From the IMG/VR virus record IMGVR_UViG_3300017613_002427, positions 1 through 22,317 of that record: a stretch of 22,317 nucleotides of DNA. One strand, written 5' to 3'. The notes beneath the pieces were generated by a model that worked only from the letters and a program-made list of their open reading frames with translations, was not told the origin of the DNA and made no database searches. The position numbers and the translations under genes were made by a program. Of the stretch, positions 5,107 through 20,395 are shown piece after piece. Each line of letters begins with the position of its first letter. Position 1 is the stretch's first letter. Source of the DNA: a virus.

Positions 5107-5649
5107 ATGGCTAATGTAGACCACCCTCACGGGTTAAGAGCAATCATGTCGAGGTTTCACGATACTCCTCGCATGACCGAATACAAGGCTAACGTAACTA
5201 CCGCTATCTTTAGGGGTGACATTGTTACCTTAAGGGCTGACGGCAGAGTGGATGCCTTGAAAACAGCAACCGGGGCAGCTAATATCCTTGGTGTTGCTGC
5301 CAACTATGTCGCTGCCGGCACTACACCGCCAGCTAAGATTTTTGTCTTTGATGACCCTGATACTGTGTTTGAAGTTCAGGGTGACTCAACCACCGATGTA
5401 GCAGAAGCTACTATTGTTGCAGAAGTTGGGGAAGAGGCAAGTATCGTTGTTGGGTCTGGGATCACTGCCAGTGGTCAGTCTGCTCATGAGTTGGACTCAA
5501 GCTCACTTACAGGAACTGTAACCACAACGGTTAAGGCACTTCAGGTTGTCGGGCATTATGGGATAGTTGGAAATGATCTTAGTCTCGCTCATGTTCGCTA
5601 TCTAGTAATTCTCAACCAGCACATCTTTACGAAGGGAATAGGAATCTAA
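5107..5649 (+). CDS. Capsid decoration / head-stabilising type protein
   Basis: A 180-aa protein immediately downstream of the capsid gene. It begins MANVDHPHGLRAIMSRFHDT and is beta- and Gly/Ala/Val-rich. It contains AIFRGDIVTLRADGRV, NILGVAANYVAAG and VFDDPDTVFEVQGDS, the pattern of the small beta-barrel proteins that follow the coat gene in many phages and coat the head as trimers. It has no membrane segment or catalytic motif. The C-terminal part (SSLTGTVTTTVKALQVVGHY) looks like further strands. SD GAGGT is at 5096-5100. The stop overlaps the next ATG by one base (TAATG), so the GT-MTase gene is translationally coupled to this virion protein. The exact structural role is inferred. Confidence 0.65.
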   Translation: MANVDHPHGLRAIMSRFHDTPRMTEYKANVTTAIFRGDIVTLRADGRVDALKTATGAANILGVAANYVAAGTTPPAKIFVFDDPDTVFEVQGDSTTDVAEATIVAEVGEEASIVVGSGITASGQSAHELDSSSLTGTVTTTVKALQVVGHYGIVGNDLSLAHVRYLVILNQHIFTKGIGI

Positions 5650-6947
5650 TGTATGATAAGGACTGGAAGAAAGCTAAGCTCTGTATCGGACTCTGTAACA
5701 ATCAGGATAAGATCAACTCATCGTTCTTCTGGAACTTTATCGAGTTAGCTAAACCTTCAAACTATATTGTCGTCAGGGGGGACTCGTCGGTTAAGAGCTC
5801 CTCCCTGAATACAATAGCTAGGATAGCGTGGGATAAGGGATCGGAGAAGATCCTGTTTCTCGATATCGACCAAGAGTTTCAGTTTGATACTATCCCAAAA
5901 CTACTCAGCAGGAAAGTACCGATAATCTCTGGGGTCTATCACACAAAGAAATATCCTTACTCTCCGGTTATGGGATGGAAGAAGAAAGGGAAGTATGTCA
6001 ATAGTGCTGGGCAGAACTGGAAGTTCAGCTATGCTCCTCTCCCAGATAACGATGACCAGCTAATTGAGGTAGACTGGGCTGGGATAGGCTGTCTTCTGGT
6101 TGACATGAAAGTGTTTGACAAGATTCGGTTCCCTGCCTTTCGTGATACCTACAACTCCGAAACAGGGGAGCGGAAGAAAGGACACGATATCATATTCTGC
6201 GATAGTGTTAAGAAGGCAGGTTTTAAGATCTACGCCGACAATACGGTACAATGTACGCATCGTGGGACAATGGGCGTTAACGACTTGTTTGTAGATACTT
6301 ACTATGCTTCTGGTATGCATCGTAAGGAGATGGAAGTAGCTAAAGCAGGAGCACAAAATAAGTTGTATTGGAACGAGCGACATTTTGCTGACAGGGTACA
6401 GGGGCTTCAACGTAAGTATACTGGGGAGTTTAACACGATCGGTAAGTATGTCAAAAATAACTCCTCCGTTGCTGACATGGGATGTGGTCCCGGGTTCTTC
6501 ATGGAATGGCTGAGAGATAACAAGAGGTGTAAGTGTTATGGTTATGACTTCTCGGCTTTTGCAATCTCTGAGGTAAAAGACAAGGGGCTTGATGGTGAGG
6601 TAGCTGATTTCAGAACGTTTAAGCCAAACGGGGAGATGTTTGATTATGTTGTTTCAACTCATGCACTAGAACACATGGTTGATGATGAGGGATACCTTCG
6701 GACGTGTGCTTCTATGCTCAAGTCTAAGGATGGCAAGGTTATCGTTTCAGTACCAAGTAAAGATAATGCTTATACAGCAGCTGTCGAGCATCAACGGACA
6801 TATACCAAAGCATCGCTTACAGCCGTCATGAAAAGAGTCTTCAAAAAGGTTTCTGTGCAGATGTCACACAAAAGTACAGACAAAGAAGCACAGAAGGTTA
6901 CAGCAAAGACGTTTGTTGCTATAGGAAGCCAGCCTCATGGGAACTGA
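5649..6947 (+). CDS. Glycosyltransferase (GT-A) - SAM methyltransferase fusion
   Basis: A 432-aa two-domain enzyme. Residues 10-205 look like a GT-A fold (GT2-like): a run NTIARIAWDKGSEKILFLDI ending in the DID motif (72-74, metal/nucleotide-sugar binding), VPIISGVY (90-97), an acceptor-side segment VDWAGIGCLLVDM (141-153), GHDIIFCDSVKKAGF and a late His (THRG, 203-206). Residues 255-428 are a class I Rossmann methyltransferase: motif I VADMGCGPG (274-282), YGYDFS (297-302), FDYVVSTHALEHM (331-343) and a VIVSVPS strand (364-370). It probably adds a sugar and methylates the glycan or its acceptor. SD AGGA is at 5640-5643 and the start overlaps the previous stop. It is unusual to find it inside a head operon; a virion protein may be the acceptor, but that is inference. 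Confidence 0.75.
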   Translation: MYDKDWKKAKLCIGLCNNQDKINSSFFWNFIELAKPSNYIVVRGDSSVKSSSLNTIARIAWDKGSEKILFLDIDQEFQFDTIPKLLSRKVPIISGVYHTKKYPYSPVMGWKKKGKYVNSAGQNWKFSYAPLPDNDDQLIEVDWAGIGCLLVDMKVFDKIRFPAFRDTYNSETGERKKGHDIIFCDSVKKAGFKIYADNTVQCTHRGTMGVNDLFVDTYYASGMHRKEMEVAKAGAQNKLYWNERHFADRVQGLQRKYTGEFNTIGKYVKNNSSVADMGCGPGFFMEWLRDNKRCKCYGYDFSAFAISEVKDKGLDGEVADFRTFKPNGEMFDYVVSTHALEHMVDDEGYLRTCASMLKSKDGKVIVSVPSKDNAYTAAVEHQRTYTKASLTAVMKRVFKKVSVQMSHKSTDKEAQKVTAKTFVAIGSQPHGN

Positions 6948-7215: not shown

Positions 7216-8136
7216 ATGAGTTTAACACATTTTCCAAACGGTATCACAAGCTTTGGCGTACCTGTCTTAGGTGGCGGGTCAATCGTAACAACAGGGAAGA
7301 TCTTCTTCGTCGATTCAGGAGCTGGGTCTGATGGCAATAGTGGGAAAGATCCGGGTCAGCCATTCGCTACTATCGATTACGCAGTCGGGAAGTGTACGGC
7401 TAGTAACGGAGATCATATTATCGTTATGCCGGGTCATGCGGAAACCATTGCATCTGCAACTTCACTTGCCCTAGATGTGGCTGGTGTCACAGTTATCGGA
7501 CTGGGAAGAGGGTCAGATAGACCGGTTCTTAACTTCTCTGCAACTGGTAGCCTTATTCCAATCTCAGCTGCAAACGTCGTTTTGCAGAACTTTCTGTTCA
7601 CCGGTGGGATCGATGCCATCGTCAACATGGTTACGATATCTGCTGCTGATGTTGGTATCTATGGCCTTGAGCTGAGAGATGTTACCGGACAGATGGTTAG
7701 CGGTATTACCACAACTGCCGCAGCTGATAGGTTAACTATCGACGGGTATCGGTTCAATGGAGCTGCTGCTGCTGGATGTGATACAGCAATTAGCATTGTT
7801 GGTGGAGAGGGCATTAATCTTCGTAACCTGTGGATCGACGGAAACTTTGCGGTCGCTTGTGTTGAGGGGGTTACTACAGCAGCTACTAATCTGACTATTG
7901 GCGGAACTGATCAATCAAGCTATTTTCGTACTCGAAATGCTGCTGATGTTATTATCACTCTTGTTGCAACTGGAACAGGGTTTGTAGGCCCTAACCTTCA
8001 TATGCGATTACAGGATAACGCTGACAACATTACGGAAGCTATGGTGGGAGCTGACATGCAGTTTATGCAGCCAATCCATATTTGTAATGCTGATGGCGAG
8101 TCTTCAATCGTGACTGACATCACAGCCTCAAGCTAA
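7216..8136 (+). CDS. Right-handed beta-helix surface protein
   Basis: A 306-aa protein. After a short N-terminus with a GGG segment it has FFVDSGAGSDGNSGKDPGQ then PFATIDYAV, the entry signature of pectate-lyase-like beta-helix proteins. Rungs with regular small-hydrophobic strands follow: DHIIVMPGHAETI, AGVTVIGLGRG, AANVVLQNFLFTGG, ADVGIYGLELRDV, GINLRNLWIDG and ATNLTIGG. No catalytic carboxylate cluster can be assigned, so a structural (head fibre or decoration) role is as likely as depolymerase activity. The start is ATG 7216 with AGGAG at 7204-7208. It is flanked by a structured leader and a terminator, so it may be a separately regulated cistron. Confidence 0.7.
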   Translation: MSLTHFPNGITSFGVPVLGGGSIVTTGKIFFVDSGAGSDGNSGKDPGQPFATIDYAVGKCTASNGDHIIVMPGHAETIASATSLALDVAGVTVIGLGRGSDRPVLNFSATGSLIPISAANVVLQNFLFTGGIDAIVNMVTISAADVGIYGLELRDVTGQMVSGITTTAAADRLTIDGYRFNGAAAAGCDTAISIVGGEGINLRNLWIDGNFAVACVEGVTTAATNLTIGGTDQSSYFRTRNAADVIITLVATGTGFVGPNLHMRLQDNADNITEAMVGADMQFMQPIHICNADGESSIVTDITASS

Positions 8137-8220: not shown

Positions 8221-8239
8221 TCTATCCTCTTTTCATTTT
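8183..8239 (+). terminator. Strong terminator hairpin upstream of adaptor gene
   Basis: AAGAGGATAGGGA (8183-8195) pairs with 8219-8231 (UUCUCUAUCCUCU-type arm) over 13 bp with a single G-U pair; the inner AAGAGGATAG/CTATCCTCTT is perfect. It is followed by TTCATTTT (8232-8239). The loop is 23 nt. The adaptor SD (GGAG, 8240-8243) begins right at its end, so the hairpin could also affect initiation at 8250. Confidence 0.7.
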
Positions 8240-8249
8240 GGAGCAGCCA

Positions 8250-9140
8250 ATGGAACTAAGCGATATCCGAAAAAGAGTCAGGTCGATCATCCGGGAACCT
8301 CGTGAGAACTTTGTAAAGGATGACGAACTCAACGACTGGTCAAACGATGCATCATTCGAGGCCACTAAGGATCTTAACTACCCATGGAAGGAGCAAACGC
8401 TTCATGGTGTAGAGGAACAGGCTGACTATGACTATGCCGCTGACTTCATCAAGCTCCACCCGCTCCTGCTCCCGTTCTTTAACAAAAAGGAGCTCAAAAA
8501 GCGTGGGTTGAAGTATCTGGAGTCTCAATATTCTAATATCTTAACAGCTGATGGAGTGGATCAGCCCGAACATTATTATATCCGTTTTCTTGATAAGTTC
8601 TCAATCTATCCACCACCAAAACTTCAAGACTCCGGCACCGCTACTGCCGGTTCTGGTCTCACTACGCTTATCGACAGTTCGGCCAGCTTCACAGATACTT
8701 ACATCGGTTACTCTATCCGAAACATAACAGACGGCAGCAATGGCCTGATTACAGCTGTCACAAGCACAACAGAACTCACAGCAGCTCTTTCTGGCGGCAC
8801 AGGAGATGTCTGGGCAGATGCTGACACCTACAAGATCAACCGGGCTGGAACGATCCCATATGTCTACAAAGAAACTGCCATGGCTGACGATGATGATGAA
8901 AGTGCTATCGCCGCTGAGTTCCCATACCTCATCATCTACCGGGTAGCGAATATGGCATATCTAAAATCTAACCAAGCGGACACAGCCTCGATGGTTCAGA
9001 CCAAATCTACCCGCTACGACACACTCTACGCTAACGAGTTTGCTCGTGCGAAGAAACAAGTCAACCAGCTTGTCCGAGGGTACATGGGAAGAACGAAGTC
9101 ACCTATTACTTACTCACAACATCATAGAGTGAGGACATAA
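8250..9140 (+). CDS. Head-tail adaptor protein with inserted beta module
   Basis: A 296-aa protein. The N-terminus MELSDIRKRVRSIIREP followed by DDELNDWSNDASFEATKDL is the helical L-x-x-I-R-x-R...W-x-N/D-x-A pattern of phage connector/adaptor proteins that sit under the portal. The C-terminal part (FPYLIIYRVANMAYLKSNQ, YANEFARAKKQVNQLVRGYM) is also helical, as expected for that family. Residues about 128-197 interrupt the fold with a beta module also found three times in the next gene. I chose ATG 8250, with GGAG at 8240-8243, over the in-frame TTG at 8238. It overlaps the nozzle gene by one base. The adaptor identity rests on N-terminal pattern plus position before the nozzle. Confidence 0.7.
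   Translation: MELSDIRKRVRSIIREPRENFVKDDELNDWSNDASFEATKDLNYPWKEQTLHGVEEQADYDYAADFIKLHPLLLPFFNKKELKKRGLKYLESQYSNILTADGVDQPEHYYIRFLDKFSIYPPPKLQDSGTATAGSGLTTLIDSSASFTDTYIGYSIRNITDGSNGLITAVTSTTELTAALSGGTGDVWADADTYKINRAGTIPYVYKETAMADDDDESAIAAEFPYLIIYRVANMAYLKSNQADTASMVQTKSTRYDTLYANEFARAKKQVNQLVRGYMGRTKSPITYSQHHRVRT
8634..8840 (+). repeat. Beta module copy A (in adaptor)
   Basis: Encodes a ~70-aa segment with LTTLIDSSASFT, YIGYSIRNITDGSNGLI, STTELTAALSGG and W-x-x-A-D-x-Y. The same succession of motifs (TLIDSAA-x-FT, VG-x-x-I-x-N-x-TD, SATE, LSGG, W...D-x-Y) appears in the nozzle protein at 9913, 10393 and, more divergently, 11713. Confidence 0.75.
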
Positions 9141-12100
9141 TGCCTAAACAAGACTTATACCACATAACCGGGCCGTTTGGTGTGGACAGGAGAGACTCTG
9201 CTATCGTCAAACATCAGCCCGGGATCCTATACGAGCTGAGGAACTACCTTGTCCACAATGGCAATATCGAGGTGAGGGAGGGGATGACAAACGCTCTCTC
9301 TACCCTTGATGGGAATAATTTCACATCTCTTCAGGCTGGCTATCGGATCCTCGCACTCCACCGATACTACGGCCTAGACGCTCTGGAAGCTGAAGTAAAA
9401 GAGTTCTACGCAGCTGTAAACGGTGCCGAAAATGCAACCTTACGTAAATGGAGTGGCACACAATGGGACACGCTTCCTCTTCCACCCGGGATTACCCTCA
9501 CAAAGGATGTCCAAGGAAACTTCGAGCAGCTCAAGGACCGGACGTACTACACCAATCAAAAAGAGCCCGTCCTTATGATCAAAAAGGAAACCGATCAGGT
9601 GTTCGAGGCGGGTATTCCAGACGCAGATCCTGAGCTTGAGATAGCCTATATGGAAACTCTCACTGAGGCTGATGATCAGGCTGACCTGATTGCTACTCCT
9701 GATCGCTGGAGATTCTATACAGATGGCGGAACAAACATGGTGCGTCACTTCCTCGATGGTGGTTTTGAACGTCACACAGAAGGGGATTTCGGCCTGACTC
9801 TCGAACAGTCAGACTTCTCAGCTGGTAAAACGCTCATCGGTGTCTATCATCTTCCAGCCGAGCTCAACCTTGAATGGTTCTATGCGATAACAAAATGGAA
9901 CGATCCAACCAACAACACTGTCTCGTCAGGCTCAGCAGATGGCGTTACCCTCACAGACTCAGCTGCTACCTTTACCACAGCTCATGTCGGGCTACAGATA
10001 GAAAACGTAACAGATGAGTCTACCGCAGTTATTCTCCAGTGGAATAGTGCTACCGAAGTCATCACAACAGAGCTCTCTGGCGGTTCCGATAACAACTGGC
10101 AGACTAACGACGTCTACACAATGGGATCCCGCTCAACCCTAAACGACTACATAGCAATCGACATATTCCGGTTCACCAAGATCGACATCGATGAGGTAGC
10201 GTTTGAGCTCTCGTCTTTTCCTCCTGATGCCTCTGGCGACTTCTCCAAAGGCTTTCATGTCACGATCTACACTGACTCTGATATGGACCACTTTCACATG
10301 ATACAACGGACCATGCTGGCAGAGTGGGCGATGAACCCATATAGCAACAAGCTCTTTTTTGGTCGGTTCCGTAAGCAATGGTTTATCGATATCCAGAGTG
10401 CGGCAACAGCTGGGAGTTCAGGAACGACTCTCATTAATTCTGCTGCTGTCTTTACCGCTGGCGATGTAGGTAAGGAGATCAAGAACCTTACTGACAATAC
10501 AAGTGGGACAGTTGCTACTTATGTGAGCGCTACGGAAATAACCACCTCCATCGGGAACTGGAACGATGGCGATGAATATGAGCTTGCTGATGACTGGTCA
10601 ACGATCAACTATATCAAGGTCCACATCCAATCTAACGCCCAGTCAACTGGCACTAACGCAGCCCGTATAACAGTCGATAATATCCGGCTGCTCAAAACCC
10701 CACCGCTTCCCTCTGAGCTCTCTCTTCAAGTAGCTACCTGTGATGCAATCGAGTCGTGGGTGAACAATGCGACTGGAGCAGCGATCGAAAATAACTACGT
10801 CTATGCAACAGAAGGAGTATCATGTAAAAAGATTCCAACTCTTGTTACAGCAAAGTATGACTGGGCTGGCATTAAGGATCTAAGTGTTTATGGGGAAGGG
10901 ACGGAGGTAGATGGATCTGATGTCTGCATATTCGATGTTTGTGGAGACATTGAAGCTCTTGGAACCGTGGTAACGACAATAAAGTTTTATGATGATGCTG
11001 GAGAGACAGCAGAGGGAACGTTCACTGTTTTTGGAAATCTCAAAAATGTTCAGCAGCGTTACATTCACAAGCAGGAATTTGAGACTAGCAATACGGTATC
11101 CGATTTCGACTGGACATCAGTAGACTATATGCTTGTTAAAAACGTAGGCATTCCTACGAACACTAATACTTTTGGTGTTTTATATATCGATCATGTCCGG
11201 TTTCAGAAAGCCTCTGCCTCCAAACTCATCAATAAGTTCATGCCGCTCGACCTTATCGTGGCCGACGCTTTCAATCGAGGCATCGACCATTACTTCCCAG
11301 AAGGCGGTATAGTAGACACCGTTTCAGACTGGCTCTTTCAAGCCTACGCCAACTTCACTCGTCAAGCAACTGGTCAAGGCCAGCTAATTTTTCCGGAATA
11401 TACACATGGCCGATATAAGATAGGCGACTACTCTTTAGCCTCCATGCAGCTCCAAGTTGATGCTGGTGGTGCTATGACAGTCACCTTTAACCAGAACGAT
11501 GACCTGACAGAATATGAAGAGTTTAACTTCAATCTCGATGGCTTCCTCTTCCCAAAGCAGCAAAACAAGACTGGTAACTGGATGGGGATCGACTGGGTTG
11601 AGATCTCAGGCACACCAACTGATGAGCTCTCGATATGGATCTCTACACCAGACATAAGGGACATTGCCAAAATAACGTTCCGGTTCTACGCTAATGCTAA
11701 TGCAAACTTTGAAGCAGGTACTGGCAAACATACCGGAGGGAATGCTTCTAAAGTGCTGGTTTCAGCTGGTGCAGATTTTACCGTAGCTCTTATCGGCAAA
11801 CGTATCCGAAACGAAAACTGGGTAACTGGAGATCCCGGGAACAGGTGGGGGATTGTTGGATGGGTACTTCCTAACAAGATAGGTGCATGGGGGATGGTAT
11901 GGGATACTGATGACGAGTTTACAATCGATACCTATGGCGGAAAAGGATTCTTGTTTGATAAAGAAGGGATTGGTGGCAAACCTGTTCCTGATGCCAATAA
12001 CTATTACGAGTACGTCCTCGATACAAATACCATGTTTGGAAGCCTTGGTGGAGTTAGTAAAGGATATAACAAGGCTCTTGAATACCCGGCTGAGAACGAA

Positions 12101-13672
12101 GAAACTCTTATTGCTGTTCGTGAGCTTGCTAAAGACTACGGCCTCCAGCGTGTCTATAAAGAAGAAGGCAAAGATGGCTGGTGGCAAGGTATCCTCACGT
12201 GGAAGAGAAAAGACATGATCCCTCATTTAGATGACAACTCTGCATGGTCATCACTTCAAGCTATCGCAGCTCATGAAATTATCGTTCAAGCATCAAGCGA
12301 GAAAAACGCTATTATCAACTTTCAAGATTTCAAGATGACAAAGAAGGGAGCGGTAAAAGGCGATAACATCACGTATAAGATCAAGTTGGAAGACGAGCTT
12401 GGCTATCTAGGCCCAGCATCTGAACCCTCTCACAAGATAACAGTTACAGGTAACGATATCAACCTAGCCGATATCGTAGTTCCTTACGACACCCGTATCG
12501 TTCGCAAGCGTATCTATAGAACAGACTCAATCGGCTCGTTTCGCTACCTAGACACAATCGACAGATTAGAAACCTCATACCTCGACCAGATCCCGGAAGA
12601 TCTCTTAGGCCCAATTATAGAGCCTGATGTCTATAAACCACCAAAGTCGGCTCACATGCGAAAAGTTGATAACCGGATGCTCTACATTGACGTCATCGAC
12701 AGGCGTGGTACTCGTCGTTCATCTCGCTTCCATCTCTCTCTCCCGTTCATACCTCATCAGTGTATGGATAAAGACGCATTCGATCTCAATCCAGATGACG
12801 GCCAGAAATCTATCTGGGGTGAGTTCTATTACGGCTATCTGCTCGCATGGAAGGAAAGAAGCTTCTACACTGTTGACATGAACACGTTTGAGAAGTCTCC
12901 CCGTGACCTCACGATCGGCTGTATAGCTCCACTCTCTGTTGCCTCGATCCCTAATGTCGGTTTTGGCTGGCTCTCACATGAAGGCGTGATCTTCGGCGAC
13001 CACACAAACATCGATAAGGATACCGGCGAGCAGATCTGGGACGACATTAAAGGCTATACTCCAGAAGAGCTCTCTCATGCGGTAGGCTGGTATAACGACC
13101 GCTACTATTACATCTTCTTCGGAAGTGACAGTAGCGTATACAACACCAAAGGGTTTGCCTGCTACATGCCAACAAAGCTGTGGACGGAGATAACAGACTG
13201 GAACGTTCAGTGTGTATCCAAGTGGACAGGCGGGACAGATAGTAGTGAGATCTATACAGGCTCTGATTTTGGCTTTATCAACAAGCTCTTCGATGGTGAG
13301 GAAGATCTTGATGATGATGTCACAAACGCAACCTCTCAAATCACAAGCCGGCTCCGTGCGATTGACTATGATTTCGGGAAACCTCACGTTGACAAGTATA
13401 TCAACTGGATCATCTTCCATGCGAAGAACCTCTCAAGCGATCCATCTCGTAAATCTCTCTTGACCGTTACTCCTTATTACGACCAGATCCCAACGACCCC
13501 GCTTGATGACGAAGAGATCCGGCTCTCTACCTATAAGAAATATGACTTATGCCAAGATCCCGGCGTTAACGGCACACTCGTTGGTTTCTCTATCGATGGC
13601 AAGAAACGGCACGCTATCAAGGAGCTCACACTAGATATTAACGATCAAGGGTTCAGGCCCGATCAGGAATAG
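9140..13672 (+). CDS. Giant tail nozzle/hub-like protein with beta modules
   Basis: A 1510-aa protein. The N-terminus GPFGVDRRDSAIVKHQPG, then LRNYLVHNGNIEVREGM, follows the G-x-D...LxN...G-x-x-x-x-R-x-G pattern of podoviral nozzle/tail tubular B-type proteins. Residues 1060-1510 look like the usual core, with repeated strand and aromatic motifs (RMLYIDVIDRRGTRRSSRFH, WGEFYYGYLLAWKERSFYTV, VGFGWLSHEGVIFG, YNDRYYYIFF) in the manner of a beta-propeller. Between them lie beta-sandwich, CBM-like regions (about 180-520, 530-692 and 700-930) carrying three copies of a ~70-aa module (258-328, 418-483, 858-933). Typical nozzle proteins are roughly 600-800 aa, so about half of this one is added material. 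SD GAGGA is at 9131-9135. The role is inferred from position and N-terminus. Confidence 0.65.
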   Translation: MPKQDLYHITGPFGVDRRDSAIVKHQPGILYELRNYLVHNGNIEVREGMTNALSTLDGNNFTSLQAGYRILALHRYYGLDALEAEVKEFYAAVNGAENATLRKWSGTQWDTLPLPPGITLTKDVQGNFEQLKDRTYYTNQKEPVLMIKKETDQVFEAGIPDADPELEIAYMETLTEADDQADLIATPDRWRFYTDGGTNMVRHFLDGGFERHTEGDFGLTLEQSDFSAGKTLIGVYHLPAELNLEWFYAITKWNDPTNNTVSSGSADGVTLTDSAATFTTAHVGLQIENVTDESTAVILQWNSATEVITTELSGGSDNNWQTNDVYTMGSRSTLNDYIAIDIFRFTKIDIDEVAFELSSFPPDASGDFSKGFHVTIYTDSDMDHFHMIQRTMLAEWAMNPYSNKLFFGRFRKQWFIDIQSAATAGSSGTTLINSAAVFTAGDVGKEIKNLTDNTSGTVATYVSATEITTSIGNWNDGDEYELADDWSTINYIKVHIQSNAQSTGTNAARITVDNIRLLKTPPLPSELSLQVATCDAIESWVNNATGAAIENNYVYATEGVSCKKIPTLVTAKYDWAGIKDLSVYGEGTEVDGSDVCIFDVCGDIEALGTVVTTIKFYDDAGETAEGTFTVFGNLKNVQQRYIHKQEFETSNTVSDFDWTSVDYMLVKNVGIPTNTNTFGVLYIDHVRFQKASASKLINKFMPLDLIVADAFNRGIDHYFPEGGIVDTVSDWLFQAYANFTRQATGQGQLIFPEYTHGRYKIGDYSLASMQLQVDAGGAMTVTFNQNDDLTEYEEFNFNLDGFLFPKQQNKTGNWMGIDWVEISGTPTDELSIWISTPDIRDIAKITFRFYANANANFEAGTGKHTGGNASKVLVSAGADFTVALIGKRIRNENWVTGDPGNRWGIVGWVLPNKIGAWGMVWDTDDEFTIDTYGGKGFLFDKEGIGGKPVPDANNYYEYVLDTNTMFGSLGGVSKGYNKALEYPAENEETLIAVRELAKDYGLQRVYKEEGKDGWWQGILTWKRKDMIPHLDDNSAWSSLQAIAAHEIIVQASSEKNAIINFQDFKMTKKGAVKGDNITYKIKLEDELGYLGPASEPSHKITVTGNDINLADIVVPYDTRIVRKRIYRTDSIGSFRYLDTIDRLETSYLDQIPEDLLGPIIEPDVYKPPKSAHMRKVDNRMLYIDVIDRRGTRRSSRFHLSLPFIPHQCMDKDAFDLNPDDGQKSIWGEFYYGYLLAWKERSFYTVDMNTFEKSPRDLTIGCIAPLSVASIPNVGFGWLSHEGVIFGDHTNIDKDTGEQIWDDIKGYTPEELSHAVGWYNDRYYYIFFGSDSSVYNTKGFACYMPTKLWTEITDWNVQCVSKWTGGTDSSEIYTGSDFGFINKLFDGEEDLDDDVTNATSQITSRLRAIDYDFGKPHVDKYINWIIFHAKNLSSDPSRKSLLTVTPYYDQIPTTPLDDEEIRLSTYKKYDLCQDPGVNGTLVGFSIDGKKRHAIKELTLDINDQGFRPDQE
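9913..10125 (+). repeat. Beta module copy B (nozzle)
   Basis: Encodes GVTLTDSAATFT, VGLQIENVTDESTAV, SATEVITTELSGG and W-Q-x-N-D-x-Y. It is embedded in a larger sandwich, between LEWFYAITKWNDP and LNDYIAIDIFRF, so it reads as an insertion into a surface loop. Confidence 0.75.
10393..10590 (+). repeat. Beta module copy C (nozzle)
   Basis: Encodes GTTLINSAAVFT, VGKEIKNLTDNTSGTV, SATEITTS and W-N-D-G-D-x-Y. It is inserted between KQWFIDIQSAA and STINYIKVHIQSN, strands of the surrounding sandwich domain. Closest in pattern to copies A and B. Confidence 0.75.
10730..11215 (+). other. CBM-like sandwich region of nozzle, AT-richer
   Basis: Encodes a ~160-aa jelly-roll-like domain: IESWVNNATG, YATEGVSCKKIP, YDWAGIKDLSVYGEG, ATTIKFYDDAGE-type strand and a final YIDHVRFQKAS. 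The positions of strands resemble carbohydrate-binding sandwiches. G+C in 10981-11100 is 48 of 120 (40%), against 28 of 60 (47%) in 12601-12660. The codon choice shifts to TTT/GTT/GGA, suggesting separate acquisition. Confidence 0.45.
11713..11938 (+). repeat. Beta module copy D, divergent (nozzle)
   Basis: Encodes KVLVSAGADFT, LIGKRIRNENWVTGDP, IVGWVLPN and W-D-T-D-D-x-F-T-I-D. The order of motifs matches copies A-C but SATE and LSGG are lost. It follows ITFRFYANANANFEAG, again at a strand end of a sandwich. Confidence 0.45.
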
Positions 13673-13674
13673 CC

Positions 13675-14808
13675 ATGGGACATGAAAAACTACCTCAAGA
13701 TTATGAGCCCGGAGCGATCCAGAAGGTAATCGAACGGCTTAAGATGTCGATTACCGGGTCGGAGCTCAAACGAACGAAAGATCTCTATGACACCAGTCAA
13801 GAGCTCAAGAAGCAGATAGCTGATCTTGAGAAACAGCTGACTGAGAAGATACAAACGCTCGGTGATGAGCGGGCTCCTACTCAGGTCAATCTACCCGTTC
13901 CTCAAAACCTCAAGGTATGGGAGATGGGCACGTGGGGCTGGGCAACTGTCGATCCCTTTATGCGGTGGAAGTATATCGGCAAGATCCAAGGATATGAGTT
14001 CTACGGGTCGCAGAATGAAGGGTTCACACCACAGTCAGACCCCTACCTCCAGTCTGGCTATCATTACGGAACGGGTACTGCTGGCTCTCCAGATACCTAT
14101 CTAAAGACAGAGGATACTGGAACACCAGCCAATACGCATGTTCTTGATACCCGGTTGATCCAAGTAACCCTTGACAAACAGCAGTACGAAGGCAACGACG
14201 AAGGTGGGATCTACTACAAACTCACCCTTGAGAACACCACACAAGGCACCAGCGGCCCGATCGCAGCTCTTGCCTACCGCCCCTCCGACAAAAAGCATCA
14301 GATCAAGGCAACTGGCGTCACATGGGTAGAAGGCGATAAGTGGGTCATCAAGAACTATCCATCGAACAAGCTATTTAACATAGGCGCTCTCAGCACATTC
14401 AACAAGCGAGCTGGGAACTTCTATGTTGTTGCCCGGTCAATCGGCAAGGGCAATGCTGCGTCAGCCTTCACCTTAGAGGTGACAAGCGAAGGGCCGACCA
14501 GCTCAGAGGATCTCACAACTCCTACGATTGTTGAGCCTATCCATACGGATGGGACAACCTGCCCACTTAATGCCAGCGGCCAACCTGAATATGGTGGTGC
14601 TGGAGGAGCTGTAGTTCCGTGGACTTCTATCGTTGCAGGCACTCGTGAGACCGATCACTTTAACTGGTTCGGCATAGAGTGGTGCAACGTAGAGATAGTC
14701 TACAACACGATTGACGAGGATGACGGGACAGCCGACATATTCTACCGGGTTAAACGAACCGGTGTAACTGTTGACGATGTTGTTGACGAAGAAACGGGGC
14801 TTGATTAA
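13675..14808 (+). CDS. Tail appendage protein: coiled coil plus FN3-like domain
   Basis: A 377-aa protein. Residues 25-62 form a heptad-like, charged helix (TKDLYDTSQELKKQIADLEK then QLTEKIQTL), probably a trimeric stalk. Then a beta-rich body begins NLPVPQNLKVWEMGTWGWAT with IQGYEFYGSQ, like an FN3 start, followed by a second sandwich (IQVTLDKQQYEG, IYYKLTLENTTQG, RAGNFYVVARSIG). The C-terminus is TADIFYRVKRTGV. It starts at ATG 13675 with AGGA at 13665-13668, two bases after the nozzle stop, and overlaps the next start by TAATG. It is plausibly the adaptor that fixes fibres to the nozzle; the assignment is from architecture and place. Confidence 0.65.
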   Translation: MGHEKLPQDYEPGAIQKVIERLKMSITGSELKRTKDLYDTSQELKKQIADLEKQLTEKIQTLGDERAPTQVNLPVPQNLKVWEMGTWGWATVDPFMRWKYIGKIQGYEFYGSQNEGFTPQSDPYLQSGYHYGTGTAGSPDTYLKTEDTGTPANTHVLDTRLIQVTLDKQQYEGNDEGGIYYKLTLENTTQGTSGPIAALAYRPSDKKHQIKATGVTWVEGDKWVIKNYPSNKLFNIGALSTFNKRAGNFYVVARSIGKGNAASAFTLEVTSEGPTSSEDLTTPTIVEPIHTDGTTCPLNASGQPEYGGAGGAVVPWTSIVAGTRETDHFNWFGIEWCNVEIVYNTIDEDDGTADIFYRVKRTGVTVDDVVDEETGLD

Positions 14809-17441
14809 TGGCTGAAAAGAAAAAGAAGTTTTACAGGTTGCGGTCAAACTCTCTCCACACCTTTAACGTAAAGGCGTGGAGTTCCAGCGCTGTAAGTGAC
14901 TGGTCGGCAGACATCCCAATTCTGACATCGGATATTCTTCCTATTGCATGGCCTCGTACAGCTGAGATTAAAGCCAAGCCGCTTTTCTTCACCCGTTGTA
15001 TCCGTGTGACGTGGACACCTCTTTTAGGCTATCCTCTTCGGTTCAGCCACTACGTTCTCTTCCGCAAGGATACAACTGAAGGGATTGTTGCCCCTACAAG
15101 CGAAGAACTCGCAGCTTCTGGTCAGGCTATTATAGACGGCACACTAGAGGACAATGAGCATTTTGTCAAAGAGACCGGCAAACTCTCTCTCTACGTTGAC
15201 CGGGTTAAGTTCGACTCTGACGACGACACAGATAACGGTGTCCTAGAAGAGCACCAGTACCACTACTGGGTATGGGGTGTGGACAATAATGGCCAGCTAT
15301 CTTACATGTCTGGTTTAGGGAAAGGCTACCTTGGCCCTGACAACGCAGAGTTTGGCAAGCCTAATCAGCCTTTGATTGTTCCAGCTTGGATGACGACAGA
15401 AGTTCACGAACGCAACGCATGGTGGTGTGATGTAAACGTTGTATGGTACTGTATAGATGGAGCTGAAGGCTACTGGGTACAAAGGAAGCTAAAGACCCGG
15501 GCTCTCTGGGGCCTCCCTGTCTGGGTAGAACATGATCCTGACGGTTCTTACGGTGGTGACTTACAGCAGGTGACGCTCAACAACTTCCTGTGCAACACAG
15601 ACTATGAGTTCAGGGTAAAGGCTGTCAACGTTCCTGTCAGGCTTGTCTCAGACATAAGCGAAGTTGGCTCGTATACGACTGATAAAGATCCTTACCCTCC
15701 AGACGAGATTGAAGACGTTGATGCCAAACGACTACGGCAAAACCTCATAACCAGAGGGGAGTATATCAAGCTTACATGGAGCTGGCCAGAAGCTGCTATC
15801 ATGCAGCAGCAGATTGACTACTACCGGATATACAAGTATGAGGGTACGGATGCTGCCGCTATTACTTATCTTGCTTATATCAATCTAGCACAAGATAGTC
15901 CTCTTAAGGCTCCTCCCTACACAGAAACGAAAAAGTTTGGTGGCACACATTTCGTAGATGATGACATAGAGGAGCTTGTTGCTGGGAAGGCGGCAGGGTC
16001 ACAATCATTCTTCTGGAACGGAGAGTATGGATCGCACACACCGAACGATCTCTTAACAGCATATATAGATACTGATCTCAACACAGAGGTAGGGACTCTT
16101 GTAACCAATGCGTTTGTAAACTCAGCATATGCTTATGATGGAACCTACTCGCTGGATTGCTACCAGCAAAGCAGCCGGTTACGTTGGGCAAACCATGATC
16201 TCGATGGGGATGAAGGATATTTAAGCTTACGGTACTATCCAGTCGATAATGTCCATACACAAACGACATGCAGGATTTTTGCAGCAACAGAGGGAGTGAA
16301 CCAGAACGGTGTGGTAATAGAACTAAGGTCTGGCAAGCTTTGGCTCCAGCACAGAGGAGCTGGCACTTTCAAAGAAACAGAGCACACAAAGACATGGGAT
16401 TCGAGCGATAAAGGTAGTTGGCATCACATCGAGGCCCGGTGGAAGAAGGAAGATGACATCCTAGATGTAAAGGTGGATGATGGTGACTGGGTATCGTCAA
16501 TAGATGCCGATGCCTTAACCTCTTTTGATGCAACAGTAGCTGATATAGGGATGGGACCCTCAGGTTTACAGCCCTCTACCAGCACCAGACAAAGATACGA
16601 TCGCTTAATCGTCAGTCCTGATTTTGATTACCCGGAGATCCCAGACATTTACTACCACTACTGGGTAACAGCTGTAGATATCGACAATCAGGAGAGTGCC
16701 GCAACAATGGTAGAGAGCTACGACAAGGTAAGCTTTGGACCGCCGGATGCTCCTGTTCTCGTTACTCCCCTTGTTAATACAGACCCCGGGTTTAACATGG
16801 TCCTCAAGCTTGGCTGGTCACTCTTCACCGTCCGTATGATATGGAAGGAGGTAGATGAGGCTACGTACTATCAGGTGAAAGTCAGGCTTCAACTGCCTAA
16901 TCGTAGCAATCCGGGTCCGTGGATGTATTCAGCCCGTATACCACAAGCAAGGATCGACACAACTGAAGGCAACAATCCGTTCTTTGTCTATCCGTTTCCT
17001 CTTCGTGGTGACACAGAACTTGAATGGGCTGTAAGAGCTGGCAATCTGGCAGGCTGGTCAGAGTCAGATCCGGTGGGTCCGATGACTATCCTATACGATA
17101 CAACAAAACCCTCTAAGCCAGCTACTCCTACTGGCAGGTGTTATGGGATCAACCGACTGTTTGGTGATCCTCTCTGGATGTCAGTCGTTCTCAAGTGGAC
17201 ACCAAACGCCAACTATGAAGGGATAGACTGCTACCAAGTGTTTGAAGATGAGGTACTGGTTGGAACACAGCCACATATGGAGTTAAGGGCGGCTACTAAC
17301 ATCAAGCAAGTTTATACTCACTTCGGAGCAGCAGCTGGAGCTTCGCATCAGTACAGGGTGACAGCTATGGGAAAGGACAAGGTACCGGGACCCCCATCTG
17401 ACAACGTAACGATCAACTTTCAAGAATGGTGGAAGATGTAA
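14808..17441 (+). CDS. Tail fibre: FN3 array with LamG-like insertion
   Basis: An 877-aa beta-rich protein. I read about five FN3-like units. Unit 1 (25-185) has IRVTWTPLLGYP...YHYWVWGVDNNGQ. Unit 2 (190-290) has VNVVWYCIDGAEGYWVQRK...YEFRVKAVN. Unit 3 (300-394 plus 611-640) has IKLTWSWPEA...YYHYWVTAVDIDNQ. Unit 4 (645-760) has VRMIWKEVDEATYYQVKV...LEWAVRAGN. Unit 5 (768-870) has VVLKWTPNANYEGIDCYQVF...YRVTAMGKD. Unit 3 is split by a ~217-aa LamG/ConA-like lectin domain. FN3 arrays in phages are spacers or weak glycan binders on virion surfaces. The start overlaps the preceding stop by one base. No enzymatic motif is seen. Confidence 0.75.
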   Translation: MAEKKKKFYRLRSNSLHTFNVKAWSSSAVSDWSADIPILTSDILPIAWPRTAEIKAKPLFFTRCIRVTWTPLLGYPLRFSHYVLFRKDTTEGIVAPTSEELAASGQAIIDGTLEDNEHFVKETGKLSLYVDRVKFDSDDDTDNGVLEEHQYHYWVWGVDNNGQLSYMSGLGKGYLGPDNAEFGKPNQPLIVPAWMTTEVHERNAWWCDVNVVWYCIDGAEGYWVQRKLKTRALWGLPVWVEHDPDGSYGGDLQQVTLNNFLCNTDYEFRVKAVNVPVRLVSDISEVGSYTTDKDPYPPDEIEDVDAKRLRQNLITRGEYIKLTWSWPEAAIMQQQIDYYRIYKYEGTDAAAITYLAYINLAQDSPLKAPPYTETKKFGGTHFVDDDIEELVAGKAAGSQSFFWNGEYGSHTPNDLLTAYIDTDLNTEVGTLVTNAFVNSAYAYDGTYSLDCYQQSSRLRWANHDLDGDEGYLSLRYYPVDNVHTQTTCRIFAATEGVNQNGVVIELRSGKLWLQHRGAGTFKETEHTKTWDSSDKGSWHHIEARWKKEDDILDVKVDDGDWVSSIDADALTSFDATVADIGMGPSGLQPSTSTRQRYDRLIVSPDFDYPEIPDIYYHYWVTAVDIDNQESAATMVESYDKVSFGPPDAPVLVTPLVNTDPGFNMVLKLGWSLFTVRMIWKEVDEATYYQVKVRLQLPNRSNPGPWMYSARIPQARIDTTEGNNPFFVYPFPLRGDTELEWAVRAGNLAGWSESDPVGPMTILYDTTKPSKPATPTGRCYGINRLFGDPLWMSVVLKWTPNANYEGIDCYQVFEDEVLVGTQPHMELRAATNIKQVYTHFGAAAGASHQYRVTAMGKDKVPGPPSDNVTINFQEWWKM
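15990..16640 (+). other. LamG/ConA-like lectin domain nested inside an FN3
   Basis: Residues ~394-611 of the fibre carry the jelly-roll pattern of laminin-G-like lectins: AYIDTDLNTEVGTL, AYDGTYSLDCYQQSSRLRWA, GYLSLRYYPVDN, CRIFAATEGVNQNGVVIELR, GKLWLQHRGAG, GSWHHIEARWKKEDDILDVK, DGDWVSSID and RYDRLIVSPDF. The preceding THFVDDD and following YYHYWVTAVD are the E and F strands of one FN3, as shown by unit 1 where they are adjacent. Confidence 0.65.
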
Positions 17442-18464: not shown

Positions 18465-19079
18465 ATGGCAGGACACAATCCAAGCTTTGTCATGAAAGAC
18501 AGAACGATAGATTTTGAGGAGGATATAAGCCGGCATTGTAGTGGTAGGATAACACCTCACGATGCTGAATTGCTTTATAAGACAGCGATGGATATCAAGC
18601 CAAAAACTATTCTTGAAATCGGCTGTATGGATGGTTGTTCAAGTATGCTTTTTGGTATGATAGCCCAGCTGACAGAGGGAAAGGTTCAGAGCATCGAGCC
18701 CATACAGAAGAAGAACTGGCTTGATAATATAGCAAGGCATAACCTTCAGGATTACGTCGAGATGTTTATTGGGCGTTCCCCGTGGATCCCTATAGAAAAG
18801 ATCAACAAGCCTATCGATTATCTCTTCATCGACGGAGATCACCGGACTAGATGGGCAATAGTAGACTATCATTACTGGTGTGAGTATGTCAGGATCGGCG
18901 GCATGATTGCTTTCCATGACTGGGGGGATCCACGTCCTTATCCGGGAGATTGCGTAAGGGAAGCAGTTGAGATTATCTTACGTGATGACTCAGAAATGCT
19001 TAAGAAGGCAGGGGAGTCTAAAAACAGGAGAGGAACTATCGTTTTCGAGAAAATATCGAACAAGAGGAAACATGTATGA
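18465..19079 (+). CDS. Class I SAM methyltransferase (Methyltransf_24-like)
   Basis: A 204-aa Rossmann methyltransferase. Motif I ILEIGCMDGCSS is at 49-60, an acidic ribose-binding residue in SIEPI (E78), motif IV-like DYLFIDGDHRTRWAIVDYHY at 118-137, then GGMIAFHDWGD (145-155). The FIDGDH...HDW set is typical of the Methyltransf_24 / cephalosporin-hydroxylase-like group, which methylates sugars and small molecules, sometimes metal-dependently. It begins a new translational unit with the best SD in the window (AAGGAGG, 18454-18460, 4 nt from ATG). It ends in an ATGA overlap with the GT-MTase gene, so the cassette is coupled from here. Confidence 0.75.
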   Translation: MAGHNPSFVMKDRTIDFEEDISRHCSGRITPHDAELLYKTAMDIKPKTILEIGCMDGCSSMLFGMIAQLTEGKVQSIEPIQKKNWLDNIARHNLQDYVEMFIGRSPWIPIEKINKPIDYLFIDGDHRTRWAIVDYHYWCEYVRIGGMIAFHDWGDPRPYPGDCVREAVEIILRDDSEMLKKAGESKNRRGTIVFEKISNKRKHV

Positions 19080-20395
19080 AAGAAGATCCACGATTAGATA
19101 AGCTGGGTATCCTGATAACTTCTCACCCTAAGCAACAGAAGTTCTGGAAGTATGGTTTGGGGTCATGGGAAGGGTGTCCGCTCTTCCTGCTGATGGGGTA
19201 CGACGATGAGAACACTGACGAACTCCCTCTCGACCAGATTATGCCGCCTGTAAACGAGATGTTCGTAACTGGCCGGCCGAAAGGCCATATAGGTCATTTT
19301 AAGGGTGAGCTGGTACAGATGAGACAGGGCGGGCTGCTCTTGCAGGAGAAAGGCTTCGAGTATATCTTTAAGACAGCTGCTGATACTGAATGGTGGAGAT
19401 GGAGAAACCTTCAGAAGATGTGGAGGGAACTAGGTGATAACGATTTCATCTATAAAGGGACAACCGTGCTCTTCGGACGTCTGGATGCTTTTAACAAATG
19501 CATGGAGCTGTGGGACAAAAGGCCGAAATGTGGAGGGGCGGAGCTTTACTTTAATAGTCAGGTAAGAACGCTTGGGATAAAATACGACATAAGAGGTGAC
19601 TCTTTCTGGCAGCCCTTTTTGGGGAGATCTCACACTCAAGGAGAGTATGCCCTAAACAATGATATAAACGTTACAAACACGTGGACGGTGGGCCAAGTGT
19701 GGGGGGAGGACTATAAGCATAAGGACATTAGTAGTCTGGCAAAACAAAAGTCCTCTACCCTAATATTAGAGGCAGCAGGCAGAAGAAAAGACGACGTAAG
19801 AAAGATCAAAGAGCTGGGGAAGTGGTATCAGACTATTCATTTAGACGATGAGCTAAGCACTCCCGGCGCAAAGAACTTTGGTGAGCCGACATGGGAAATG
19901 ATGGAGCCGTTTCTCCCGGACGTAAAAGGGAAGTGGGTTCTTGATATCGGTTGTAATGCAGGATGCTTCTCCTTCCATCTGTGTCGGAAAGGCGCAAAGA
20001 GTGTGTTAGGAATAGATGCTAGTGAACGATATCTTGCGCAGGCCCGTTTTGTGAAAGAGTATCTTGAGCAGAAAGAGGGACGGGAGTATCCGGTTGAGTT
20101 CTCGCAAGTCAAGCTTCAGTTTGAGAAGGAGCCTAATATTCTTGACCATATCCAGCACAGCTTTCCCGTTGTCTTTCTCAGTGCTTTCATTCATCATGTG
20201 AAACCGGTAGAGAAAGTAGCTGAAAAACTGTTTGGCCTTGCTACCCAATCGCTTGTTGCGTGGCTGGTTGTGGACAAAAATCGGACAGATCTGGCATTTA
20301 TCAAACTGGCTGGCAACTTGGGCTGGAAGGTTGCTCACGACGGGTCATCACCGAAGCGAAAAAGATATTGTATGGTGTATGAAAAAGTCAGGTAG
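19076..20395 (+). CDS. Second glycosyltransferase - methyltransferase fusion
   Basis: A 439-aa protein. Residues 1-215 resemble a GT-A glycosyltransferase: GILITSHPKQ at the start, HFKGELVQMRQGGLLLQEKG (74-93), FEYIFKTAADTEW with an A-D-T-E in place of DXD (94-106), then FIYKGTTVLFGRLDAF and ELYFNSQVRTLG. Residues 248-439 are a methyltransferase of the CmoB/Methyltransf_9 type: KWYQTIHLDDELSTPG (249-264), motif I VLDIGCNAG (288-296), SVLGIDASERYL (309-320), VVFLSAFIHHV (365-375). CmoB itself carboxymethylates tRNA, but the family also includes sugar methyltransferases, more likely here given neighbours. It is a different combination from the 5649 fusion. It begins with an ATGA overlap. Confidence 0.65.
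   Translation: MKEDPRLDKLGILITSHPKQQKFWKYGLGSWEGCPLFLLMGYDDENTDELPLDQIMPPVNEMFVTGRPKGHIGHFKGELVQMRQGGLLLQEKGFEYIFKTAADTEWWRWRNLQKMWRELGDNDFIYKGTTVLFGRLDAFNKCMELWDKRPKCGGAELYFNSQVRTLGIKYDIRGDSFWQPFLGRSHTQGEYALNNDINVTNTWTVGQVWGEDYKHKDISSLAKQKSSTLILEAAGRRKDDVRKIKELGKWYQTIHLDDELSTPGAKNFGEPTWEMMEPFLPDVKGKWVLDIGCNAGCFSFHLCRKGAKSVLGIDASERYLAQARFVKEYLEQKEGREYPVEFSQVKLQFEKEPNILDHIQHSFPVVFLSAFIHHVKPVEKVAEKLFGLATQSLVAWLVVDKNRTDLAFIKLAGNLGWKVAHDGSSPKRKRYCMVYEKVR

Follow-up and report, generated by a model that had tools for sequence, protein, structure and literature searches.

The adaptor and nozzle genes of one virus record contain copies of the same β-rich segment of about 70 residues, raising the question of whether this segment is a portable domain in its own right and what it would contribute to the virion. 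The window, by which we mean the whole stretch of DNA analyzed (22.3 kb), carries an SU10-type portal gene upstream of the adaptor (PF23899, 4e-18), a head-protease/major-head type protein matching phrog_133, the head-tail adaptor and a nozzle-type protein. The adaptor gene (8250–9140, plus strand) encodes 296 residues, and its start is probably the ATG at 8250 rather than the TTG at 8238 because all orthologs begin at ATG 8250. Its product matches phrog_399 with an E-value of 4e-5, and the ortholog from related phage L011 does so with 3e-6. The gene for the nozzle-type tail protein (9140–13672, plus strand; 1510 residues) follows directly, and the C-terminal part of the protein matches phrog_511 (2.8e-8) and, weakly, a "phage stabilization protein" (E 3e-3). 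Portal, adaptor and nozzle are found in the order of SU10/T7-type short tails. The nozzle call, which draws on gene order and on the phrog_511 and stabilization-protein matches, is the weakest of the three assignments.

Several neighboring genes are of separate interest. A fused gene between the head and tail genes (5649–6947) combines a glycosyltransferase-like N-terminal part (phrog_1574, phrog_34859) with a C-terminal SAM methyltransferase (Methyltransf_23, 1.4e-15), and the related phage L052 has a similar gene before its adaptor (1586–2860). Two further methyltransferase genes (18465–20395), the second of which also weakly matches leucine-rich repeats, are perhaps involved in virion or host glycan modification. 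Just upstream of the adaptor, 7216–8136 encodes a 306-residue protein without a family match and with β-helix-like sequence (GAGSDGNSGKDPGQPFATIDYAV...), possibly a decoration or fiber protein. The 877-residue product of 14808–17441, with weak fn3 and LamG matches, is a candidate tail fiber or receptor-binding protein.

Four related segments in two tail proteins

All four segments lie on the plus strand. Module A (about 8634–8840) follows the strand FSIYPPP in a β-rich, probable fiber-dock domain of the adaptor. The nozzle contains modules B (about 9914–10123), C (about 10397–10585, between WFIDI and DDWSTINYIK) and D (about 11711–11938), the last of which is divergent, with a middle part that is unrelated or expanded. 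The coordinates and motif order reported in an earlier note on this DNA proved right. Pairwise BLOSUM62 scores among A, B and C ranged from 114 to 129 against shuffle means of 34 to 35 (Z 12.6–14.2). Failure of HMMs to cross-detect A–C had been named beforehand as one result that would refute the module, and every two-copy model found the third copy (1e-11 to 1e-14), with iE-values of 1.1e-11 for C from A and B, 2.4e-12 for B from A and C, and 1.1e-14 for A from B and C. At the level of sequence, the homology and common ancestry of A, B and C are beyond doubt. An independent origin, in which adaptor and nozzle segments would be alike only as low-complexity Thr/Ser/Gly/Asp-rich β segments, agrees with a module composition rich in T, S, G and D, but it is exceedingly improbable and is refuted for A–C by the shuffle and profile scores, as composition-preserving shuffles never come near the real scores and the motif order is kept across about 70 columns in 85 copies.

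Three-copy models recognized D weakly (iE 0.05–0.6 over 28 residues). Against an enriched profile of 62 environmental copies, with D itself left out, D scored 18.7 bits, compared to 8.5 for the best of 1,000 shuffles. The match covers the opening 32 columns and the closing 9 (W-DTDDEFTI), the middle being unrelated, and D is also found in the nozzle of L011. D is likely a divergent member of the module family, as the earlier note had described it. Within the window, no DNA-level or tandem repeat linking the copies was found, and a six-frame scan gave no further members beyond A–D. A calcium loop (DxDxD before D-x-Y) was also considered for the module and was dropped because A–C do not retain DxDxD.

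Predicted fold and placement of the module

In the AF2 model of the adaptor, pLDDT per ten-residue block was 78–96 over residues 121–200 and mostly 83–96 over 131–200, compared to mostly below 50 outside the module, a contrast that derives partly from alignment depth because the flanks had a thin alignment. The adaptor alignment as a whole was thin, consisting of four adaptors and 20 module fragments. Module A was modeled as a six-stranded barrel with a short helix, comprising about 70 residues, with strands at adaptor residues 125–130, 139–141, 155–158, 163–172, 175–178 and 193–197. The structure prediction proposed in the earlier note has thus returned a separate barrel for the adaptor copy, and we are confident in module A as a predicted self-contained fold within the adaptor. 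The AF2 model of the nozzle (807 residues, nine alignment rows) had a mean pLDDT of 38 and was set aside except for the B region (pLDDT 53–70), in which the strand order is as in A. Because this model is poor, the assignment of the fold of A to B–D rests on sequence, which argues for it strongly in B and C and modestly in D.

A Foldseek search of predicted viral structures recovered the module unit in another viral protein (1.8 Å over 76 columns, 42% identity). The structural neighbors are closed small barrels, namely the N-terminal barrels of F1/V1-ATPases and phage tail barrels. They include a region of the Solidus gp83 tailspike (Z 8.6), a gene-transfer-agent protein (Z 8.3), endosialidases, and portal-tail chains of LME-1 and Carin-1.

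The placement of the module was compared between two adaptor lineages whose first 69 residues are homologous (hhalign E 6e-7). With the modules removed, the FSIYPPP strand of the present lineage aligns with LxLDPPP of lineage 2, a stretch that is not significant alone. The module follows FSIYPPP here and precedes the matching LxLDPPP strand in lineage 2. On this alignment, the two lineages carry the module in different loops flanking one strand, which indicates independent placement. It is kept in all complete adaptors examined, namely four of the present lineage and all complete ones of lineage 2, three of which gave weak module scores.

In the nozzle, B–D lie in a large insert that precedes the conserved C-terminal core. 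B is present in all four orthologous nozzles. The C site, flanked by conserved WFI-I and DDW-TINY-K, is filled in the window and in L052 and cleanly empty in the other two (L011 and L005), and a gain or loss occurred at this site; L011 is 86% identical to the window over the N-terminal nozzle part compared. The L052 copy of C was not alignable in the nozzle family by MAFFT and was assigned by its profile score, which none of 1,000 shuffles reached.

Carriers, range and age of the family

The family was gathered from scans of IMG/VR and of one genome per species followed by profile searches, which yielded 62 good copies in 45 carrier proteins. When the module was masked, these carriers fell into 14 groups without residual similarity, among them both adaptor lineages, the nozzles, a group of tail proteins and β-helix proteins. 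Copies occur in carriers that are unrelated outside the module and on this ground qualify as a new family. The portable, self-contained module proposed earlier is borne out by the 14 carrier groups, the two adaptor loops, the filled or empty C site and the confident folding of A alone in the model. It is best described as an unnamed family of small predicted barrels shared by virion proteins and secreted proteins.

Copy number and company vary widely among carriers. One carrier is a 1169-residue viral protein with five copies, and gammaproteobacterial carriers hold three to six. Three to six modules per protein were seen in L019 10-3516, which is viral, and in L027, L029, L034 and L042, four of these five being gammaproteobacterial. 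Further carriers are large proteins that combine multiheme-cytochrome motifs with LamG, and others that bear a Por secretion tail. The companion domains on cellular carriers (LamG, β-helix, fn3, Por secretion tail, multiheme motifs) are of extracellular types. In L031, L033, L043 and L045, the module lies downstream of multiheme CXXCH motifs in large LamG proteins, an unexpected setting for a module of phage tails. Six viral contigs (L020–L025) carry a near-identical 171-residue protein with one module, the other end of which matches the tail-fiber family phrog_12296. The hosts include MAGs of Gammaproteobacteria, Chloroflexota, Planctomycetota, Nitrospirota, Elusimicrobia, WOR-3 and candidate phyla, as well as a Nanoarchaeota bin, whose carrier is similar to proteins of phage tails and is possibly viral.

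The module is rare in cellular genomes, with 0/199 other genomes of one phylum and 1/148 of another containing it. Similar sequence does occur in environmental surface proteins, as the earlier note held, but "many" is too strong. When 36 diverse members were compared to Pfam-A and NCBIfam, none scored above a curated cut-off, and the best E-values (0.016–0.4) fell on unrelated families, one member each. By tblastn, module A had no match in cultured phages and plasmids, the three copies tried (module A and those of L008 and L017) had none in about 50,000 phage records, and the adaptor as a whole likewise had none in cultured phages.

In a tree of 65 copies, built from just 71 columns, the A copies from four related phages cluster together and the B copies form a second cluster (93/92), and the C copies of the window and L052 pair weakly (91/59). 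This weak pairing would favour an old C that was lost twice rather than two gains. Between the window and L011, omega was 0.16 for both A and B, 0.05 for D and 0.02–0.08 for the flanks, values that are rough because dS is near saturation. These estimates place A, B and D under purifying selection, with a quicker rate of change in A and B than in the sequence around them. Since the A and B copies group by position and are therefore old, and since they are under purifying selection, recent spread within the genome is not supported. Nor is recent duplication inside the phage, given this clustering, the selection on A, B and D and the lack of DNA repeats, and mobility over short time scales appears lower than the earlier note held.

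Proposed role and comparison with known barrels

We favour, with moderate confidence, small independently folding barrels that lie in surface loops of their carrier proteins as putative exposed accessory modules binding glycans or fibers. A barrel of about 70 residues with six strands and a short helix would be inserted into carrier surface loops. Module A would protrude from the fiber-dock region of the adaptor, and B–D from inserted β-domains of the nozzle close to the tail tip. As the phage adsorbs, the protruding barrels would provide additional contacts with glycans of the host surface or with extracellular glycans, or they would take part in holding tail fibers. Because C can be absent, at least this copy would be an optional enhancer and not essential. 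Because A is constant, a structural or docking role is more likely for it; A itself may well be a fiber dock, and for a module fixed in adaptors an assembly role fits better than an optional adhesin. The extracellular nature of the cellular carriers speaks for binding, as do A and B, which are constrained yet quick to change. Against it, the conserved residues (TL-D, N-x-TD and D-x-Y, motifs kept across phyla) look structural, and no conserved binding pocket or surface site was found in the alignment of 85 copies.

It is possible, although not probable, that all the modules are docking barrels holding fibers between adaptor and nozzle, like the small barrels of T7 gp11 and gp12. The T7 adaptor and nozzle each have a small β-barrel fiber dock with the fiber between them (PMC6702177), and in SU10 the fiber-dock loops stick out from the adaptor (PMC9509320). 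A phage-only module profile matches the solved Carin-1 nozzle (E 0.0028) at residues 183–222 and 599–650, two stretches that follow the order of the tip and dock in T7, Foldseek returned the LME-1 portal-tail chain with a probability of 1.0, and module A is constant in adaptors. However, hhalign against cultured nozzle barrels gave a probability of 4%, compared to 5.5% for the best control window, and T7 gp12 was not detected by module profile comparison. The insert containing B–D precedes the conserved C-terminal core, away from the T7 dock position, and cellular carriers have no fibers. Exposed binding is favored over a fiber dock because the module also occurs in proteins unrelated to fibers.

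A stable soluble barrel without a specific ligand, serving as a passive spacer or decoration that adds bulk, protease resistance or solubility, is unlikely. Such a barrel would agree with the loop placement, the clean presence or absence at C, the great diversity of carriers and the lack of a conserved surface site in the alignment. It agrees poorly with the purifying selection seen for A, B and D (omega 0.05–0.16), with conservation of N-x-TD and D-x-Y across phyla and with the constancy of the module in adaptors.

Portable surface modules are a main phage route to altered adhesion, and to our knowledge those described so far (Ig-like, BACON, carbohydrate-binding) all belong to named families. 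The present module has no Pfam or NCBIfam entry, and its kind, that of accessory virion modules, is already known. It sits in the adaptor and nozzle, parts commonly regarded as pure plumbing, and the presence or absence of C among close relatives offers a natural experiment on what the module contributes. A family model would annotate part of many unlabeled surface and virion proteins.

Among known barrels, the N-terminal barrel of the F1/V1-ATPase α and β subunits resembles the module in fold (Z about 7 over 66–73 residues), and Z values below 8 are common among unrelated small domains. The two share a common architecture, with no sequence or functional link.

Ig-like and BACON domains are optional domains of about 70–100 residues found across virion proteins and common to secreted bacterial proteins. 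BACON is treated as such a portable domain in PMC6949934. None of the Ig, Big, fn3 and BACON models matches module members. The best structural neighbors of the module are closed barrels and not sandwiches; Ig folds are missing among the listed structural neighbors, which is noted and is not proof.

The endosialidase tailspikes of K1F and phi92 also carry a small barrel on a phage tail protein (Foldseek E 5e-5). The superposition is poor, with an rmsd of 13 over 138 columns, and the match may depend on the flanks; binding residues are not transferable. The resemblance is at the level of fold at most, with no sequence relation found, and homology was set aside. In K1F the barrel binds polysialic acid, tolerates mutation and is a hotspot of host discrimination (PMC12632334), and by analogy it speaks for an exposed binding role of the module.

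Finally, a barrel with a helix also forms the tip of the T7 nozzle (PMC6702177), and the T7-type nozzle barrels of Carin-1 gp36 (PDB 8CK1) and LME-1 (PDB 9EFK chain M) are likewise small barrels with a short helix. They share with the module the motif T-x-T-x-S-A-x-x-F-x(4)-D-V-G, both occur in nozzles, and Foldseek with the module finds 9efk_M and 8ck1_A, known as chain-level matches. The Carin-1 match of the phage-only profile was lost with a diverse profile, a PDB sequence search with the latter gave nothing convincing, and profile-profile scores did not exceed controls, so that kinship is suggestive only. An undescribed mobile barrel family that supplies interchangeable docking or adhesion sites to phage tails and to secreted microbial proteins, ancestral to or descended from the T7-type tip and dock barrels, is decidedly doubtful. 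If true, a core part of the short-tail machine would also travel as a free module. T7-type barrels are fixed parts of the nozzle, whereas the module occurs in 14 unrelated carrier groups.
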